Shown one piece after another: positions 44,040 to 51,952 of a stretch of 64,000 nt of DNA (position 1 is its first letter; every line of letters starts with the position of its first letter). The position numbers were made by a program, and so were the translations under genes. The stretch comes from Nitrospirota bacterium (GTDB taxonomy: Bacteria; Nitrospinota_A; UBA7883): assembly GCA_024275315.1 (NCBI GenBank), contig JAJRZK010000009.1, positions 62,001-126,000 on the forward strand. The letters are read 5' to 3'. The notes beneath the pieces were generated by a model. It did not search any database and had not been told where the DNA came from. It saw only the letters and a list, made by a program, of their open reading frames with translations.

Positions 44040-44067
44040 TTGACTTAACAGCGATTGAACGTATAAT
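44040..44067 (+). promoter_or_regulatory. Sigma-70 promoter of the DUF4390-NtrY-LpxC unit
   Basis: TTGACT (44040-44045), a 16-base spacer, and TATAAT (44062-44067). Transcription would start near 44075, about 20 bases before the TTG start of the DUF4390 gene. It is the only strong promoter-like site seen ahead of the kinase and LpxC-fusion genes. Confidence 0.68.
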
Positions 44068-44096: not shown

Positions 44097-44867
44097 TTGA
44101 AATTGCGGATATATATCTTTTTGGGCTCAATTTTTCGTAGCGTTTCCATCTATAAACCGCTTTTGCTGTTGGCGGCGCTCGCCCCGGCCATATCAACCGC
44201 CTCTCCCGCCATTGCGCTGGATGACGCGTTTATGGTTGATGTTGTCCGGTCCGGATCCTATGACAAGGTAAGCGTATCCGCCACACTCAAAGGCGCCTTT
44301 ACACCCCAGATCAGGGAATCGGTGTCAAGCGGCGCCCCGGTGATATTCACCTATTTCATCCAGCTAAAACAGTGGAGACCGTTTATATGGAACGAGACCG
44401 TAAAAGAGCTGGTGATCAAGAAGATGGTTAAATACGACACGCTCAAGAAGCAATACATGGTGTGGGAGAAAAAGGGGGAGGATGAGGACGACATAAGCTT
44501 TGAAATCGAGTTGGCAAGCGTTAATTACGATGAGGAGAAGAAAAAAAACGCCAGGAAAAAGGAAAAACGAATAAGGAAACATACAACGGAGCCTGTCATG
44601 GAGCCTATATTCATTGAAGACAGCGTTGCGTTCGAAAAATGGATGACACACATCGACAACGTTACGATAAGCGATGCAAAAGATCTTAAAGCGTTATCCA
44701 GATATTATGTTCGCGCGCGATGCAAAATGAAATCAGTCAGGCTGATCCCTCCATTTAACTACATCCTTTTTTTCGTCTCCCTGTGGGATTTCGACACGGA
44801 CTGGACCAATTCGACAACATTTACCATAAACAGCAATGGAACAGAAAATAAAAAGCCTCCCAACTAG
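44097..44867 (+). CDS. DUF4390 exported protein
   Basis: A 256-residue protein with a long N-terminal hydrophobic leader (SIYKPLLLLAALAPAISTASPAIA) read from TTG 44097; no later start would keep the signal. The mature part is beta-rich (KVSVSATLKGAFTPQIRESVSSGAPVIFTYFIQLKQWRPF) with a Lys-rich insert (EEKKKNARKKEKRIRK) and ends in the family's aromatic motif PPFNYILFFVSLWDFDTDW. DUF4390 proteins regularly lie beside NtrY-type kinases, as here (33 bases). A periplasmic accessory or signal-input role for the kinase is inferred from that association. Confidence 0.75.
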   Translation: MKLRIYIFLGSIFRSVSIYKPLLLLAALAPAISTASPAIALDDAFMVDVVRSGSYDKVSVSATLKGAFTPQIRESVSSGAPVIFTYFIQLKQWRPFIWNETVKELVIKKMVKYDTLKKQYMVWEKKGEDEDDISFEIELASVNYDEEKKKNARKKEKRIRKHTTEPVMEPIFIEDSVAFEKWMTHIDNVTISDAKDLKALSRYYVRARCKMKSVRLIPPFNYILFFVSLWDFDTDWTNSTTFTINSNGTENKKPPN

Positions 44868-44900
44868 GCGGGCTCGATCAACGGCAGAAGCGTTCCAGCC

Positions 44901-47234
44901 ATGGATATAAGGCTTCTCGCCAGGCGAGCTTTCAACCTGCTCAAATGGCTGGCCATACCAGGCTCGTATAACGAGCTCGATCCCAACGATATCATCGAGC
45001 GAAGGAAAAGAAAAACCCGAGCGGTGATGTTCGGTGTGATCATCTTGTTCATACTGATGACTCTTGCGGCCATCATCCTGCAAGACTCCAGTGTCGACGC
45101 TCCGATCTCGAACGATATAGCCGTTGCGCTGGTGTTCAACCTGGACCTTATCCTGCTGGTTGTCATCGTTCTGCTGGTGTTCCGGAACCTGGTCAAGCTC
45201 TATTTTGAAAAAAGGGGAGGAAAAGCAGGCTCGCGTTTTCAGACCAAACTGATTTTCGCTTTCCTGGGGTTGACCCTGATTCCCTCGGCGTTGATGTTCG
45301 CCGTTGCGTCGGAGCTGATAGGAGACACCGTTGACAAGTGGATCAACTCGCGCATCGAGCATACGTTGCAACAGTCCCTGCAAGTGGCCGATTCGCTCTA
45401 CAAACAGTCCGAAGACGAAACCAACGCATACGCCTATTATCTTTCCGGCCTCATAGACAAACGCGGCTGGCTGAAGAAAAAATATGTAAACCAGCTTGCG
45501 CTTCTGGCGCGTCAAAAGGTGCTGGAATACAATATGGACATAATCCAGATATACAGCGGAGATTTCGAGCTGATCGCCGAGGCCAAGCACTCCCGTGCGG
45601 AAAACCTCGATTTCAAGCTCGATTCCAAGCCGGACATGCTGGCCAAAGTCGCCATGGGGGAAAGCGTTACCAGCGTTGAGGATCTGAGCGGGACAAACAT
45701 GGTGGTAACCCTGGCGCCCATTCCAAGAAAGCTGAAAAAAGGGCAGATAAAAGGCCTTGTTGTTGTTGTAAAAATGGTTTCCAGGCAACTTATCAAAAAG
45801 ATTCACTCCATAGTCGCGGCTTTTGAGGATTACAAGCAACTAAGCCTTAAAAAGGAGATAATCAAGGCCTCATACCAGGTCACTCTGACCATGGTCACGC
45901 TGGTGATTGTTTTTTCTGCGATCTGGTTCGGTTTTTACATCGCCAAGGGGATCACGGTACCACTGAAGATGCTTGCCGAAGCCACGGAATCGGTCGCCAA
46001 GGGAAACCTTCATGTCAGGATCAACCTGCCCAGGCAAAACGATGAAGTCGGCCATCTGATAAACGCGTTTAACAAGATGACAGAGGATCTGGAAAACTTC
46101 AAGGAGCAAATCGAGCAATCCAACAAGGACCTGTCCGAGTCCAACATCGAGCTGTACCATTGGGGGCAATACATAGAAGCGGTGCTCGAAAACGTTGTCG
46201 GCGGAATAATATCGATAGACAAAACCGGCTCCGTCACCACCATCAACGATTCCGCCGCGAGAACTTTCGGCGTCTCCGCTTCCTACGCCAGGGGACGCGA
46301 TTACAGAAAGCTGTTTCAAGCCGCTTACCTAGACCCTATCCGCCGCATGATCCGGGATATGAGTGAGGAGAAAAAAACCATAGATAAAGAATTGATCCTC
46401 CATGTAAACGGCCAGCGAAGGATCATAAAAACCAGCGTCTCGGTCCTCAGCGACCACAACGGACAATATATGGGAATGGTGTTCGTGTTCGACGATGTAA
46501 CGGACCTCATATCGGCGCAGTTGGCCATAGCCTGGCGCGAAATGGCCAGAACAATAGCCCACGAAATTAAAAATCCGCTTACACCGATTCAGTTGAACGC
46601 CCAGCGGATGCGGCGCAAATTCGAGCAGAATTCCGAGGATTTCGCCAAAGTGTTCGACGATGCGACCAACATAATAATTGAAGAGGTCGAGCGGCTCAAA
46701 TCCCTGGTAAACAAGTTCTCCATGCTGGCCAAGCAGTCCGAAGCGGAACTGGGCGCAAAAAAAGAATCGCCGGTCGAGGGGCTTGAGCTGAACCCGGAGC
46801 CGAGCATGCTGCACGACATCGTTTTTGATATCGTAAAATTATACAAGGGCACTTTCCCCGGTGTGACCCTGGAAACGGCGCTCGACCCATCCATCCTGCT
46901 TGTGAACATAGACGCAGAGCAAATACGCCGTGTCATAATAAATCTTGTTGAAAACGCCATAGACGCGGTGAACGGAGATGGCCTTATATCCATAAGGACA
47001 AAAGCCGACTGGGACAGGGGCAAACTGACCCTCGAGGTCGCCGACACCGGGCATGGTGTGACCGAAGATATAAAGAGCAGGATATTCCAGCCCTATTTTT
47101 CCACCAAGGAAAAGGGGACTGGTCTGGGGCTGGCTATAGTAAGCCGTGTCATAGAAGATCACGGGGGAGTTATATCAGTCAATAACGCGGAGGGTGGGGG
47201 CTCTGTGTTTAGCATCGAACTTGATATCGATTAA
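44901..47234 (+). CDS. NtrY-like transmembrane sensor histidine kinase
   Basis: A 777-residue protein. Three N-terminal membrane helices (VMFGVIILFILMTLAAIIL; LVFNLDLILLVVIVLLVF; LIFAFLGLTLIPSALMFAV), a periplasmic sensor region (about 150-325), a fourth helix, HAMP (KGITVPLKMLAEATESVAKGNL), PAS (about 430-530), HisKA with AHEIKNPLTPIQ (His554), and HATPase with NLVENAIDA, DTGHGV and GTGLGLAI. This is the NtrY architecture. The protein encoded 142 bases downstream has a full receiver and no DNA-binding domain and is the probable phosphorylation target. The stimulus is unknown; an envelope signal is plausible. Confidence 0.92.
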   Translation: MDIRLLARRAFNLLKWLAIPGSYNELDPNDIIERRKRKTRAVMFGVIILFILMTLAAIILQDSSVDAPISNDIAVALVFNLDLILLVVIVLLVFRNLVKLYFEKRGGKAGSRFQTKLIFAFLGLTLIPSALMFAVASELIGDTVDKWINSRIEHTLQQSLQVADSLYKQSEDETNAYAYYLSGLIDKRGWLKKKYVNQLALLARQKVLEYNMDIIQIYSGDFELIAEAKHSRAENLDFKLDSKPDMLAKVAMGESVTSVEDLSGTNMVVTLAPIPRKLKKGQIKGLVVVVKMVSRQLIKKIHSIVAAFEDYKQLSLKKEIIKASYQVTLTMVTLVIVFSAIWFGFYIAKGITVPLKMLAEATESVAKGNLHVRINLPRQNDEVGHLINAFNKMTEDLENFKEQIEQSNKDLSESNIELYHWGQYIEAVLENVVGGIISIDKTGSVTTINDSAARTFGVSASYARGRDYRKLFQAAYLDPIRRMIRDMSEEKKTIDKELILHVNGQRRIIKTSVSVLSDHNGQYMGMVFVFDDVTDLISAQLAIAWREMARTIAHEIKNPLTPIQLNAQRMRRKFEQNSEDFAKVFDDATNIIIEEVERLKSLVNKFSMLAKQSEAELGAKKESPVEGLELNPEPSMLHDIVFDIVKLYKGTFPGVTLETALDPSILLVNIDAEQIRRVIINLVENAIDAVNGDGLISIRTKADWDRGKLTLEVADTGHGVTEDIKSRIFQPYFSTKEKGTGLGLAIVSRVIEDHGGVISVNNAEGGGSVFSIELDID

Positions 47235-47376
47235 TGCTAGAATGCCAAATGAACCCCGGGTTTCCTGAAACGAACAACCTCCGTGGATAACCTCTGGTAA
47301 TTAGTGTTTTTATGCTCGGCTATGGCAGGAAGCCTGGCGACAAACCCTGATTTTTGAACAAAGGACGCACGCTCGA

Positions 47377-49500
47377 ATGACAAAAGGCAAAATCCTTGTC
47401 GTGGACGACGAAGAGAACATTCGAGGTTCCCTGAAGGAAATACTCGTTGACGAAGGTTATGAGGTCTCCATCGCCGAGGACGGGGAAACAGCCCTGCGCA
47501 TGATACAGTCTGAAGCTCCGGATCTGGTTTTGCTTGATGTCTGGATTCCCGGAATAGACGGCATACAGACACTTAAACTGTTAAAAAAAATGGATTCCAA
47601 CACAGAAGTGGTCATGATGAGCGGCCATGGCGCCGTTGATACCGCTGTCAAGGCCACGAAGCTTGGGGCGTACGATTTTATCGAAAAACCGTTTTCCCTT
47701 GATACGGTTCTTCGCAAAGCTTCCGAGGCGCTCCAAAACAAGCGCGGCAGGGCACAGGGAGGTGGAGCGGTCGGTGAAGAGGTTTTTACCGAAAACTGGT
47801 TTATCGGATCGTCGGAAAATGCCGCACAGGTAAACGCGTTTCTGCGAAAAGCTTCTAATAGCGTTGAACCGGCCCTGATTTGTGGCGAATCCGGTCTCGG
47901 CAAAAGATTCGCCGCTCGCCTGATCCACGAGCGGTCAAAACGGCGGAATGAACCTTTCACTGAAATTTCCTGCGACACTACCAGCGTCCAGGATTTTGAC
48001 GCGCTACTGTTCGGAAAACACTCGGAAAACAGTGATGATAATCACATGTCGGATTCAAGGAGAACAACGCTGGCTGGCAGCGGGACGATATTTTTTGACA
48101 AGCTCGACAGCCTGTCCATTAAATCGCAACGCAAGCTCTTCAAGGCTTTGGACAGGGGCATAAGGGACCCCAAAAGTAGCGGTGGCTCTCTAAACGCGAG
48201 GATAATCGCATCTTCAGACTCGATTATCCGAAGCGACTCGGTTGAAAATAATATAATCAAGGGTTTTGTAGGCCTTTTTTCCGGCATGACGATAAACATC
48301 ACTCCTCTACGCCAGCGCAGAGAGGACATCAAGGATCTTGTGTCCAAGTTTGTGGGCGACTTCGGCGTAGTTTACGGCAAACACATAGAAACCATTGACA
48401 AGAAGTTTTTGGACGTTATTTCAAGCTCTCCTCTTCCCGGCAACACAGTGGAACTATACAACATTGTCGAGATGGCTATCCTTTCATGCCAAGGCGCAAC
48501 GCTGACCCTGGATCATCTTGCGCCGACCGACCATGAAAAGCAAACCGGATACGCAAAATCCTCCAAAAACACCGCCATAGCAGAGGTTTCCGGAACGGCC
48601 GACAAAACCGCCCGCACCAGGAAAGCGGCGCGGCGCACAAGCAAGAACACCGTGTATCAACGCACTTTGAGAAACTCCGTGGTACTGTGCGGCCAGGGAC
48701 TGCACTCCGGGATAAAAACGGGGATAATTCTTTCACCCTTGCCGCCGAATTCCGGAATCGTCTTCTGGGATATCAGCTCCGGCGGGAAAGTGTCCGGGCT
48801 ACTGGATTTCGTCCGCTCCACCGAATACGCCACAACGCTTTCCCATGGTGACGTTACGATCAAAACGGTCGAACACCTGATGTCCGCGTTGCACAGCTAC
48901 CATATAGCCAATCTTCTCGTGAAAATAGGAGACGAAGCTCCTATTATGGATGGGTCGTCCCTTGATTTCTGCAAAATCATTGAAGATGGCGGGATAAAGG
49001 AGCAGGACGCGGTCGTAGAGCGTATTGCGCTGGACAAGGTTATCAGCGTCGGTGACCCGGACGATGGGCCATACCTGGCCGTGGAGCCTACGGACAATTT
49101 TTCAATAAGCTATTTTCTGGACTATCCCCCTCCCATCGGAAAGCAGGAACACGTCTATACCCACAAATCGGGGGAACATTACAGAAGGACAATAGCCCCG
49201 GCCAGAACGTTTGGATTTTTAAAGGACATCAAGAAGCTGGAAGAGGCGGGCCTTGCCAGCGGGGGGAAACTTTCCAACGTCATCCTTATAGACAACGAGA
49301 AAGTCGTCAACACGCCGCTGAGGTTTCCAAACGAACCTGCGCGTCATAAAATCCTCGATCTGATAGGTGACCTGTATCTGCTGGGCCGCCCGATCAATGG
49401 ACATTTTATCGCAAAGCGAAGCGGGCACACCCAAAACATCGCCCTGATAAAAAAGATAAGCAAGCATATAAACTCCGGAAAACATGAACCAGAATCATAA
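47377..49500 (+). CDS. lpxC: Fusion: response-regulator receiver + degenerate sigma-54 AAA+ domain + LpxC deacetylase
   Basis: A 707-residue fusion. Residues 1-120: receiver with Asp10/Asp11, phospho-Asp54, Ser82 and Lys104 all present. Residues about 140-385: AAA+ domain of NtrC/NtrX type but degenerate; Walker A GESGLGKR (170-177) is kept, the GAFTGA loop is replaced by an unrelated KHSENSDDNH stretch, and Walker B reads GTIFFDKLD with Lys in place of the catalytic Glu. No Fis-type helix follows. Residues about 424-700: complete LpxC with Glu499-His500 (EHLMSALH), His657, Asp661 (HKILD) and His684, spaced as in E. coli LpxC. It should deacetylate UDP-acyl-GlcNAc, the committed step of lipid A synthesis, likely under control of the NtrY-like kinase upstream. 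Confidence 0.93.
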   Translation: MTKGKILVVDDEENIRGSLKEILVDEGYEVSIAEDGETALRMIQSEAPDLVLLDVWIPGIDGIQTLKLLKKMDSNTEVVMMSGHGAVDTAVKATKLGAYDFIEKPFSLDTVLRKASEALQNKRGRAQGGGAVGEEVFTENWFIGSSENAAQVNAFLRKASNSVEPALICGESGLGKRFAARLIHERSKRRNEPFTEISCDTTSVQDFDALLFGKHSENSDDNHMSDSRRTTLAGSGTIFFDKLDSLSIKSQRKLFKALDRGIRDPKSSGGSLNARIIASSDSIIRSDSVENNIIKGFVGLFSGMTINITPLRQRREDIKDLVSKFVGDFGVVYGKHIETIDKKFLDVISSSPLPGNTVELYNIVEMAILSCQGATLTLDHLAPTDHEKQTGYAKSSKNTAIAEVSGTADKTARTRKAARRTSKNTVYQRTLRNSVVLCGQGLHSGIKTGIILSPLPPNSGIVFWDISSGGKVSGLLDFVRSTEYATTLSHGDVTIKTVEHLMSALHSYHIANLLVKIGDEAPIMDGSSLDFCKIIEDGGIKEQDAVVERIALDKVISVGDPDDGPYLAVEPTDNFSISYFLDYPPPIGKQEHVYTHKSGEHYRRTIAPARTFGFLKDIKKLEEAGLASGGKLSNVILIDNEKVVNTPLRFPNEPARHKILDLIGDLYLLGRPINGHFIAKRSGHTQNIALIKKISKHINSGKHEPES

Positions 49501-50086
49501 GTTGCGCGTTGCGGTTTTGGCTTCCGGAAGAGGGTCGAACCTGCAGGCGCTGATAGACTCGTGCCGGTCGGGCGAGGTGGATGCGCGGGTGATTCTCGTG
49601 ATATCCGACAATCCGGCCGCCAGGGCTCTCGAACTCGCCAGAAAAAACTCCATCCCCGCCACCGTGATCGAAGCGAAAGGATACCACTCCCGTCACGAGT
49701 TCAACACCGCCCTTGCCGACGCGGTGGAACGGTCCGGGGCGGATCTTGTCTGTCTGGCAGGTTTTATGCGTGTGTTATCAGAGGCTTTTCTTGAACGGTT
49801 CAACGGGATGATAATAAACATCCATCCATCCCTGCTCCCTTCCTTCCCCGGCCTTAACGCGCAAAAACAGGCGCTGGAGCACGGGGTGAAGGTGACCGGC
49901 TGTACTGTCCATTGGGTGGACAGGGGGGTCGACACCGGTTCGATAATCCTGCAGGATTGTGTAAAAGTCGAACCGGACGATACGGTCGAAACATTAAGCC
50001 AGAGGATTTTAAAACAGGAGCACGTCATATATCCCAAAGCCGTGCAACTGATAGCTTCGGGCGCTGTAAAGGCTCCCGTGCGGTAA
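49484..50086 (+). CDS. purN: Phosphoribosylglycinamide formyltransferase
   Basis: A 200-residue enzyme with LRVAVLASGRGSNLQALID (phosphate loop), LAGFMRVLSEAFLERF, and the catalytic NIHPSLLPSFPGLNAQKQALEHGVKVTGCTVHWVD, including Asn-His and the HPSLLP signature. It formylates GAR with 10-formyl-THF in purine synthesis. It starts inside the lpxC fusion (17-base overlap), so translation is linked to it, and ends 17 bases before lolA. Confidence 0.96.
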   Translation: MNQNHKLRVAVLASGRGSNLQALIDSCRSGEVDARVILVISDNPAARALELARKNSIPATVIEAKGYHSRHEFNTALADAVERSGADLVCLAGFMRVLSEAFLERFNGMIINIHPSLLPSFPGLNAQKQALEHGVKVTGCTVHWVDRGVDTGSIILQDCVKVEPDDTVETLSQRILKQEHVIYPKAVQLIASGAVKAPVR

Positions 50087-50103
50087 ACCTGCCTGCCGAT
50101 AAC

Positions 50104-50814
50104 ATGACAAGTTTCACTAGTCTCATTTCCCGGCAAAAAACGCTTGGGGCGATTCTCCTTTTCGCCATTTGCGCTGTCTGCCTCCCGGCACAGGCCAGCG
50201 CGGCGCCGGCGGAGCTTGACGACCTTATAGCCAAAACCCAGGCGTCTTTTAACAAGACAAAAACGCTGACTGCGGATTTTACCCAGGAGACGGTAAACAA
50301 AGGATTCGGGCGTGTTACAAAATCAAATGGGCGCTTGTATCTTTTGAAACCGGCGATGATGCGATGGGAATATGAGACACCAAAAGGGCTTTTATTGCTG
50401 ATCGACGGAAAGAAACTCTGGTATTACGACCCGGAGGACAATACAGCCTATTTTGACAAGCTGGAAGGATATTTGCACCCAAAATCCCCCGCCATGTTCC
50501 TGGCTGGCGAGGAACCACTGACCAGCCTGTTTACAATCGAATTGGCGCCGACGTCAAAAGAGGATAAACTTGATACCAGGGCAATGAAGCTGACCCCGAA
50601 AGAGCCGCAACCTGGCGTTCGGGCGATGTTGCTCAAGGTCGATGCAAAGACTTATACAATCCGCGAGCTGATTGTGGTGGATCATCTCGGAAATCGAAAC
50701 AGGCTGATGTTTAGCAATGTCAGACAGCCGGACAGGATTGACCCGGATTTTTTTAAATTTAATATTCCGGAAGGGGCGAGCGCGCGGGCGATGCCAAATC
50801 CCGGGATAAAATAA
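50104..50814 (+). CDS. lolA: Outer-membrane lipoprotein carrier protein LolA
   Basis: A 236-residue protein from ATG 50104; longer in-frame starts lie within purN. Signal peptide ends near QASA-AP. The mature LolA fold is recognisable: KTLTADFTQETVNKGFGRVTKSNGRLYLLKPAMMRWEYETPKGLLLLIDGKKLWYYDPEDN, with the hydrophobic half-barrel and ENTAYFDKL-like segment. It ferries lipoproteins from LolCDE to LolB across the periplasm. No lolCDE is in the window. Lies between purN and rseP in an envelope-themed unit. Confidence 0.93.
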   Translation: MTSFTSLISRQKTLGAILLFAICAVCLPAQASAAPAELDDLIAKTQASFNKTKTLTADFTQETVNKGFGRVTKSNGRLYLLKPAMMRWEYETPKGLLLLIDGKKLWYYDPEDNTAYFDKLEGYLHPKSPAMFLAGEEPLTSLFTIELAPTSKEDKLDTRAMKLTPKEPQPGVRAMLLKVDAKTYTIRELIVVDHLGNRNRLMFSNVRQPDRIDPDFFKFNIPEGASARAMPNPGIK

Positions 50815-50836
50815 TATTGAATGAAAGATAGAGGCA

Positions 50837-51952
50837 ATGAACATATTTGGCGTCATGACTTTTATTGAAACATTGACACCTGAACGGCTGGTCGGATGGG
50901 TGGAGTTCGGCTTGTCCGCGATTATAGTTCTGGGTATGCTAATTGTTGTGCACGAGTGCGGCCATTTTATAACCGGCAGGCTTGTGGGGGTGCGGGTCGA
51001 AAAGTTTTCCATCGGGTTCGGGCCCCGGGCGTGGGGCAAGACCATAGGTTCCACCGAATATCTGATTTCCTGGATTCCTCTCGGAGGGTACGTAAAATTT
51101 TACGGAGACGATCCGGACGCGGAGGTGGAGGACCAGGATGAATCGTTTTTTAACCAGGTGGTCTGGAAAAGACTGCTGATTGTGGCCGCAGGCCCATTTT
51201 CCAACCTCGCTTTCGCCATTGTCATTGTCGCCCTTGCGGCCATGATAGGGTTGCCGGAGGGCTCCAGGATAATCGACGAAGTAATGAAAGACTCACCGGC
51301 CCAGCAGGGGGGGCTGTTACCCGGAGACAGGATTGACGCCATTAATGGGCTTAAGATGGCCACCTGGAAAGATGTCCAGACAACCATCCAGAAATCGCCG
51401 GGCGAAAACCTCAGCATTGATGTGTACCGTGAATCGGGCGAGCGGGTGGAGCTTACAATCACACCGAGAGAACACAAGGGAGTCACCATCGACGGCAAAG
51501 AGATAACCATCGGCCAGATCGGTGTAATGCCCAGGCAGATAACAAAACAATACCCGCCCCACCTGGCCGTGGTCAAGGGTGTCACATGGACATGGGATGT
51601 GACGGTTCTCACCTTTTGGGCGATCTCGAAGCTGATCACCCGCGAGATTCCGGCGGATCAGATAGCGGGTCCCATAGGAATCATGAAAATGGCCGGTCAG
51701 GCGGCAAAGACGGGATTCGAAAGCCTGTTGCTATTTATAGGATTAATCTCGGTCAACCTGGGCATATTGAACCTGCTACCCATACCGGTTCTGGACGGGG
51801 GGCATATATTGTTTTTCTCGATTGAAGCCGCGCTTGGCAAACCGTTGAAACTCAAACACCAGGAGCTGGCCCAGCAGGTGGGTATATTCATGCTCATCAG
51901 CCTTATGGCCCTGGCTTTTTACAACGATATAGCGCGGATGATAAATGGTTGA
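50837..51952 (+). CDS. rseP: RIP site-2 protease RseP
   Basis: A 371-residue inner-membrane zinc protease: HECGH at 39-43 in the first helix, a PDZ domain (about 115-205; LPEGSRIIDEVMKDSPAQQGGLLPGDRIDAINGL), and NLLPIPVLDGGHILFF with the third metal ligand in the penultimate membrane region. It cleaves anti-sigma factors and remnant signal peptides within the membrane. Here it ends the kinase-LpxC unit. A possible substrate is the anti-sigma-like protein encoded at 62736, but that is only inference. Confidence 0.95.
   Translation: MNIFGVMTFIETLTPERLVGWVEFGLSAIIVLGMLIVVHECGHFITGRLVGVRVEKFSIGFGPRAWGKTIGSTEYLISWIPLGGYVKFYGDDPDAEVEDQDESFFNQVVWKRLLIVAAGPFSNLAFAIVIVALAAMIGLPEGSRIIDEVMKDSPAQQGGLLPGDRIDAINGLKMATWKDVQTTIQKSPGENLSIDVYRESGERVELTITPREHKGVTIDGKEITIGQIGVMPRQITKQYPPHLAVVKGVTWTWDVTVLTFWAISKLITREIPADQIAGPIGIMKMAGQAAKTGFESLLLFIGLISVNLGILNLLPIPVLDGGHILFFSIEAALGKPLKLKHQELAQQVGIFMLISLMALAFYNDIARMING

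Follow-up and report, generated by a model that had tools for sequence, protein, structure and literature searches.

The committed step of lipid A synthesis, which also controls the flux, is catalysed by LpxC, a target of antibiotics. LpxC is known to be controlled by proteolysis involving FtsH, LapB and YejM, by the binding of proteins such as MurA, and at the level of transcription. Response regulators with an enzyme as output are also well known, for example CheB, the PleD-type GGDEF proteins and the HD-GYP proteins, and these outputs are mostly signalling enzymes. The protein described here resembles them in having a receiver attached to an enzyme but differs from them in that this enzyme commits a precursor to a biosynthetic pathway. 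Response regulators of this general type are already known, but an output that catalyses the committed step of lipid A synthesis is unusual for them. Fusions of LpxC that have become fixed in whole lineages are also known, namely LpxC-FabZ (NF009667, PRK13188). In LpxC-FabZ, however, a second biosynthetic enzyme is located at the C-terminus, whereas the fusion described here carries a signalling receiver at the N-terminus.

Two-component regulators that affect lpxC have been described in Desulfovibrio and in the alphaproteobacteria. In D. vulgaris, the single mapped target of the regulator DVU2934 is lpxC, and in Syntrophobacter fumaroxidans lpxC is located directly upstream of the operon that is orthologous to that of DVU2934 (PMC3333781). 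DVU2934 carries the GAFTGA motif (PMC4641369). In R. sphaeroides, loss of NtrYX results in an 8.8-fold increase of the lpxC transcript and an approximately 2-fold increase of LPS, through an indirect effect (PMC7240162). Both systems act via transcription, whereas in the fusion the regulator and the enzyme are part of one polypeptide. A 2025 review of LpxC regulation covers proteolysis, protein partners and transcription; the parts consulted describe no built-in receiver, and the word 'fusion' is absent from the review (PMC12444477). In agreement with the earlier note on this DNA, whose author knew of no published description, no description of a receiver-LpxC fusion was found in the open-licence PMC papers that were searched, which is not proof of absence.

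Architecture of the fusion protein

The window, which is the whole stretch of 64,000 nucleotides that was analysed, contains at 47377..49500 an open reading frame for a protein of 707 aa, consisting of a receiver, a decayed sigma-54-type AAA+ domain and LpxC. All features given here are on the forward strand. The earlier note had described this as one uninterrupted frame with a complete receiver (Asp54, Ser82, Lys104), a degenerate AAA+ domain and a complete LpxC, and this description was confirmed at each of the residues that it named; the frame has no internal stops. The receiver domain (47389..47721, aa 5-115) contains D10, D11, D54, S82 and K104 and matches Pfam Response_reg at aa 6-113 with 108 bits. 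It is followed by the AAA+ core (47794..48312, aa 140-312), which matches Sigma54_activat at aa 143-284 with 70 bits. The core has kept a Walker-A-like GESGLGKR motif, has lost GAFTGA and has Lys242 at the position of the Walker-B Glu. The AAA+ lid (48313..48546, aa 313-390) matches AAA_lid_14 at aa 312-393. The Fis-type helix-turn-helix (HTH) that is expected after the lid is absent from the protein, and a linker and LpxC are found in its place. In the AlphaFold2 model, the pLDDT is below 50 at aa 391-421, just before LpxC, and the linker (48547..48648, aa 391-424), which is also poorly conserved, is probably disordered. Confidently modelled, folded domains with a disordered linker between them are predicted for both the long and the short forms of the fusion.

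The LpxC deacetylase domain (48649..49467, aa 425-697) is complete. It matches PF03331 at aa 428-695 with 275.7 bits (cut-off 27) and passes TIGR00325, the NCBIfam LpxC equivalog, with 251.2 bits (cut-off 187.25). The zinc ligands and catalytic residues E499, H500, H657, D661 and H684 are all present, and Foldseek matches this part to the LpxCs of Aquifex and Pseudomonas with rmsd values of mostly 1.5-2.3 Å. The fusion therefore shares the whole fold and all catalytic residues with stand-alone LpxC and differs from it in its N-terminal receiver and in its position in the LpxC tree. Production of a free LpxC from an internal start was considered and rejected: in a start-codon scan the linker contains no in-frame ATG, and the only GTG and TTG codons are those at aa 426, 431 and 435, which lie within the LpxC domain or at its border.

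The earlier note had raised the possibility of a second, stand-alone lpxC. A genome search found none in the assembly (2.9 Mb, 63 contigs, 100% complete), so that the fusion is its sole lpxC. LpxB is also encoded. Since this is the only LpxC of the genome and LpxB is present, the fusion must be the working LpxC if lipid A is made, and deacetylase activity is expected.

Distribution and phylogeny

The lineage survey of LpxC homologues with N-terminal receiver and AAA+ domains that the earlier note had proposed was carried out and resulted in a single clade spread over several phyla. A protein search of 97 genomes found the continuous fusion across the order and class of the window's genome and in genomes of other phyla. 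When a profile of the fused LpxCs was run against 385 genomes, 40 genomes scored 370-455 bits and the next score was 271 bits; all 40 have long open frames. The receiver is present in all 39 clade members whose N-terminus is complete, and the 40th is cut by a contig end. In a maximum-likelihood LpxC tree, one branch with 100/100 support splits 53 fused from 51 stand-alone sequences. The simplest reading is a single fusion event, although the data do not fix the position of the root. A tree of the receivers, with an alignment of 111 columns, is too short to show one origin of the receivers.

Three architectures occur in the clade: receiver-AAA-HTH-LpxC, receiver-AAA-LpxC as in the window, and receiver-LpxC without AAA+. 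In a scan of named genomes, most of the records with long forms bore the label Nitrospinota, Nitrospina sp. LS_NOB among them. Forms without AAA+, of about 430 aa, came from records assigned to Acidobacteriota, Binatota, Nitrospirota (Thermodesulfovibrionia) and several 'Deltaproteobacteria'. These are the labels of the depositors, mostly on metagenome assemblies. One compact receiver-LpxC (L044) is only 426 aa long. The HTH-bearing forms are scattered over the LpxC tree and look basal. Loss of the HTH and loss of the AAA+ domain each need several changes on this tree, and AAA+ loss appears to have been reached more than once, with some of the forks weakly supported. In five fusions (L020-L024) a Fis-like HTH could be aligned in the stretch from the lid to LpxC, and in two others (L037, L043) it was deduced from linker length. 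The recognition-helix region of the HTH-bearing fusions differs from that of stand-alone NtrX.

Conservation of the receiver and decay of the AAA+ domain

D54 of the receiver is present in 68 of 68 aligned fusions and K104 in 67, and the LpxC catalytic residues are conserved in all 68. GAFTGA has been lost in all 37 long fusions and the Walker-B Glu in 36 of them. The exception (L151 in G210) is the only long fusion with an intact Walker-B DE; it also lacks GAFTGA and may still hydrolyze ATP. Within the order, the receiver has a mean identity of 74% and LpxC one of 71%, against 31% in the AAA+ domain and 14% in the linker. The dN/dS values of five close pairs range from 0.02-0.10 in the receiver and 0.04-0.13 in LpxC to 0.13-0.24 in the AAA+ domain, and in each pair the value for the receiver is below that for LpxC. 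Loss of the receiver was never seen in the clade, while separate branches have lost the AAA+ domain and the HTH. These patterns suggest that selection keeps the receiver and LpxC and lets the region between them decay.

The earlier note had proposed that a decayed NtrX serves as a control module on LpxC, with the AAA+ part as an allosteric or oligomerising domain. Comparative evidence supports this proposal for the receiver but not for the AAA+ part. It is unlikely that the main control lies in the AAA+ domain, because it is far less conserved and has been deleted in the receiver-LpxC branches, whereas the receiver is never lost. The receiver is most likely the control element, and the AAA+ domain is best read as a relic. 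It may retain some role in the lineage of the window, since residual purifying selection on it is indicated by its dN/dS and the Walker-A-like motif has been kept.

The NtrY kinase and the origin from NtrX

A gene for an NtrY-type membrane histidine kinase with NtrY_N, HAMP, PAS, HisKA and HATPase domains (Pfam) is located at 44901..47234 and ends approximately 140 bp upstream of the fusion. It is preceded by a DUF4390 gene (44097..44867, PF14334), and a promoter-like TTGACT-16-TATAAT sequence, identified by consensus match only, is found before the DUF4390-ntrY-fusion genes at 44040..44067. Downstream are purN (49484..50086), which overlaps the stop of the fusion by 17 bp, lolA for the outer-membrane lipoprotein carrier (50104..50814; named from sequence, with its start set by ORF inspection) and a gene for an rseP-type M50 site-2 protease (50837..51952; Pfam). 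The six genes from DUF4390 to rseP (44097-51952) are co-oriented with short gaps and look like an operon for envelope functions with a purine gene among them. The order fusion-purN-lolA-rseP is conserved.

The earlier note had pointed to the kinase at 44901 for phosphorylation of the fusion. Comparative evidence supports this adjacent NtrY as the cognate kinase, as ntrY adjoins the fusion in the window's order and in several other lineages, and the order DUF4390-ntrY-fusion is also found at L032, L033, L042 and L044 and in G297. A recognisable NtrY is encoded in about 36 of the 40 clade genomes, with some matches partial and one divergent. In five fusion-clade genomes in which ntrY is unlinked from the fusion, no regulator gene was found beside it. 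NtrY is therefore presumed to be the partner kinase of the fusion receiver. As a phosphodonor it is only inferred, because it is unlinked from the fusion in many clade members and missing in a few: a full-length NtrY was not found in three genomes of family f101 (G117, G255, G384), which keep the fusion. Of the four receivers that deviate, two belong to this family (L172 in G117 and L175 in G384), in a small sample. They carry K104R and D11S, the latter together with further changes, and possibly reflect early receiver decay. DUF4390 remains next to ntrY in four of the five unlinked cases (L201, L202, L203, L204), and its protein is possibly an accessory of the NtrY sensor.

The derivation of the regulator part from NtrX, as claimed in the earlier note, is supported by the receiver signature ISGHGxIxTAVKATKLGAxDFIEKP, the order of AAA+ and lid, and the NtrY gene next door. 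NtrX is also the best full-length regulator match of the fusion in NCBIfam, and Foldseek matches the fusion to Brucella NtrX (5m7p). The fusion differs from NtrX in lacking the HTH and GAFTGA and in having LpxC as output, and it scores 235 bits against the NtrX equivalog, below the cut-off of 600. It also lacks two features of a sigma-54 activator (bEBP), the GAFTGA contact loop and the Walker-B catalytic Glu. Separate lpxC-(DUF4390)-ntrY-ntrX clusters were observed at eight loci of Desulfobacterota type and Methylomirabilota (L066, L072, L077, L079, L081, L084, L099, L105). The Desulfobacterota-type clusters encode an ordinary LpxC, often with DUF4390, and their ntrX mostly has an intact GAFTGA. 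Judged from these sequences, the separate cluster is a plausible and likely ancestral state, and an NtrX-type ancestor may once have regulated lpxC as a gene.

Proposed mechanism and alternative explanations

It is probable, on the comparative sequence evidence, that the NtrX receiver has become a phosphorylation switch on LpxC, with NtrY phosphorylating Asp54 and the output of LpxC being altered directly. In the ancestor, lpxC, ntrY and ntrX would have been separate genes side by side, and a fusion that probably happened a single time would have placed ntrX in frame before lpxC. Decay would then have affected what was no longer needed, namely the loop that contacts sigma-54, the ATPase, the helix for DNA binding and, in several branches, the AAA+ domain as a whole, and selection would have retained the phosphorylatable receiver, the flexible linker and LpxC. 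The membrane kinase NtrY may sense the envelope or redox state and phosphorylate Asp54, and the altered conformation or dimerisation of the receiver would change LpxC output, so that lipid A flux is set without transcription. The predicted combination of folded domains and a disordered linker fits dimerisation or docking of the receiver more than a rigid relay. Phosphorylation, NtrY as donor and action on LpxC activity are inferred here, and an effect on activity is favoured over one on stability or location. We lean slightly towards activation, by analogy, because this is the polarity expected of a GAFTGA-bearing lpxC regulator such as DVU2934; the alphaproteobacterial NtrYX lowers lpxC expression (PMC7240162), which is the opposite polarity and was counted against activation. 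The apparent role of LpxC as the output of a two-component receiver, as put forward in the earlier note, is supported by the clade and by the conservation of receiver and catalytic site. That a phosphorelay acts directly on LpxC throughout this multi-phylum clade, which would also preserve a stepwise record of a transcription factor stripped to a switch, is considered fairly probable.

The receiver could instead govern regulated turnover, with phosphorylation exposing the protein to, or hiding it from, FtsH/LapB, Lon or ClpXP and in this way setting LpxC abundance rather than the rate of catalysis. This is rather unlikely, as no degron is directly evident and the C-terminal tail in the clade is short and variable. 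According to the 2025 review, however, abundance is the control point of LpxC in E. coli (PMC12444477). In addition, of two PF18073 matches in the genome, one is LapB (L186, on contig C31 of G000), and protein turnover may therefore still matter; the other (L185) looks like RadA. An absence of LapB, considered as an argument for a new type of control, was rejected on this match. Even with control through turnover, LpxC would be governed by a two-component system. Quite unlikely is membrane tethering, in which the receiver docks on NtrY, brings LpxC near the lipid A machinery and is released by phosphorylation. NtrY is a membrane kinase by its Pfam domains, the predicted flexible linker would suit a tether, and the same review describes a neisserial LpxC localised to the membrane through Ght (PMC12444477), but the fusion is kept in the three f101 genomes without NtrY, and a mere tether would not need a conserved phosphorylation site.

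That the fusion arose by accidental read-through, with the receiver as an inert passenger without effect on LpxC, is very unlikely. Although fusion of adjacent genes is common, such a passenger is hard to reconcile with the conservation of the receiver, whose phosphorylation residues are near-invariant across several phyla, whose dN/dS is as low as that of LpxC, and which persists where the neighbouring AAA+ and HTH were lost. It is also highly improbable that the protein is a bifunctional trigger enzyme, still a DNA-binding transcription regulator that carries LpxC. The persistence of a Fis-like HTH in the L020-L024 type would allow this, but the lineage of the window has neither HTH nor GAFTGA, the short forms also lack AAA+, and even where the HTH is present its recognition-helix region is unlike that of stand-alone NtrX. 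The chance that two genes were joined by an assembly or annotation artefact is negligible and this explanation was rejected. Many members are metagenome assemblies, but the same uninterrupted frame and domain order recur in about 40 sampled genomes, near-complete ones and assemblies of four contigs and of a single contig among them, so that a sequencing accident does not account for the open junction, and the fused LpxCs have a coherent phylogeny. The reading favoured here thus remains a phosphorylation switch acting on LpxC activity.

Implications

If this reading is true, a built-in receiver would add a further and direct mode to the controls of LpxC. A sensor kinase in the membrane can then probably act on lipid A synthesis itself and not via gene expression. 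The short form of 426 aa offers a compact protein for in vitro work on the control of LpxC by phosphorylation. The clustering of lpxC, ntrY and ntrX outside the fusion clade suggests that the link of NtrYX to lipid A synthesis and the cell envelope is old, and the fusion clade shows how a regulator of genes can end up as a domain of an enzyme.
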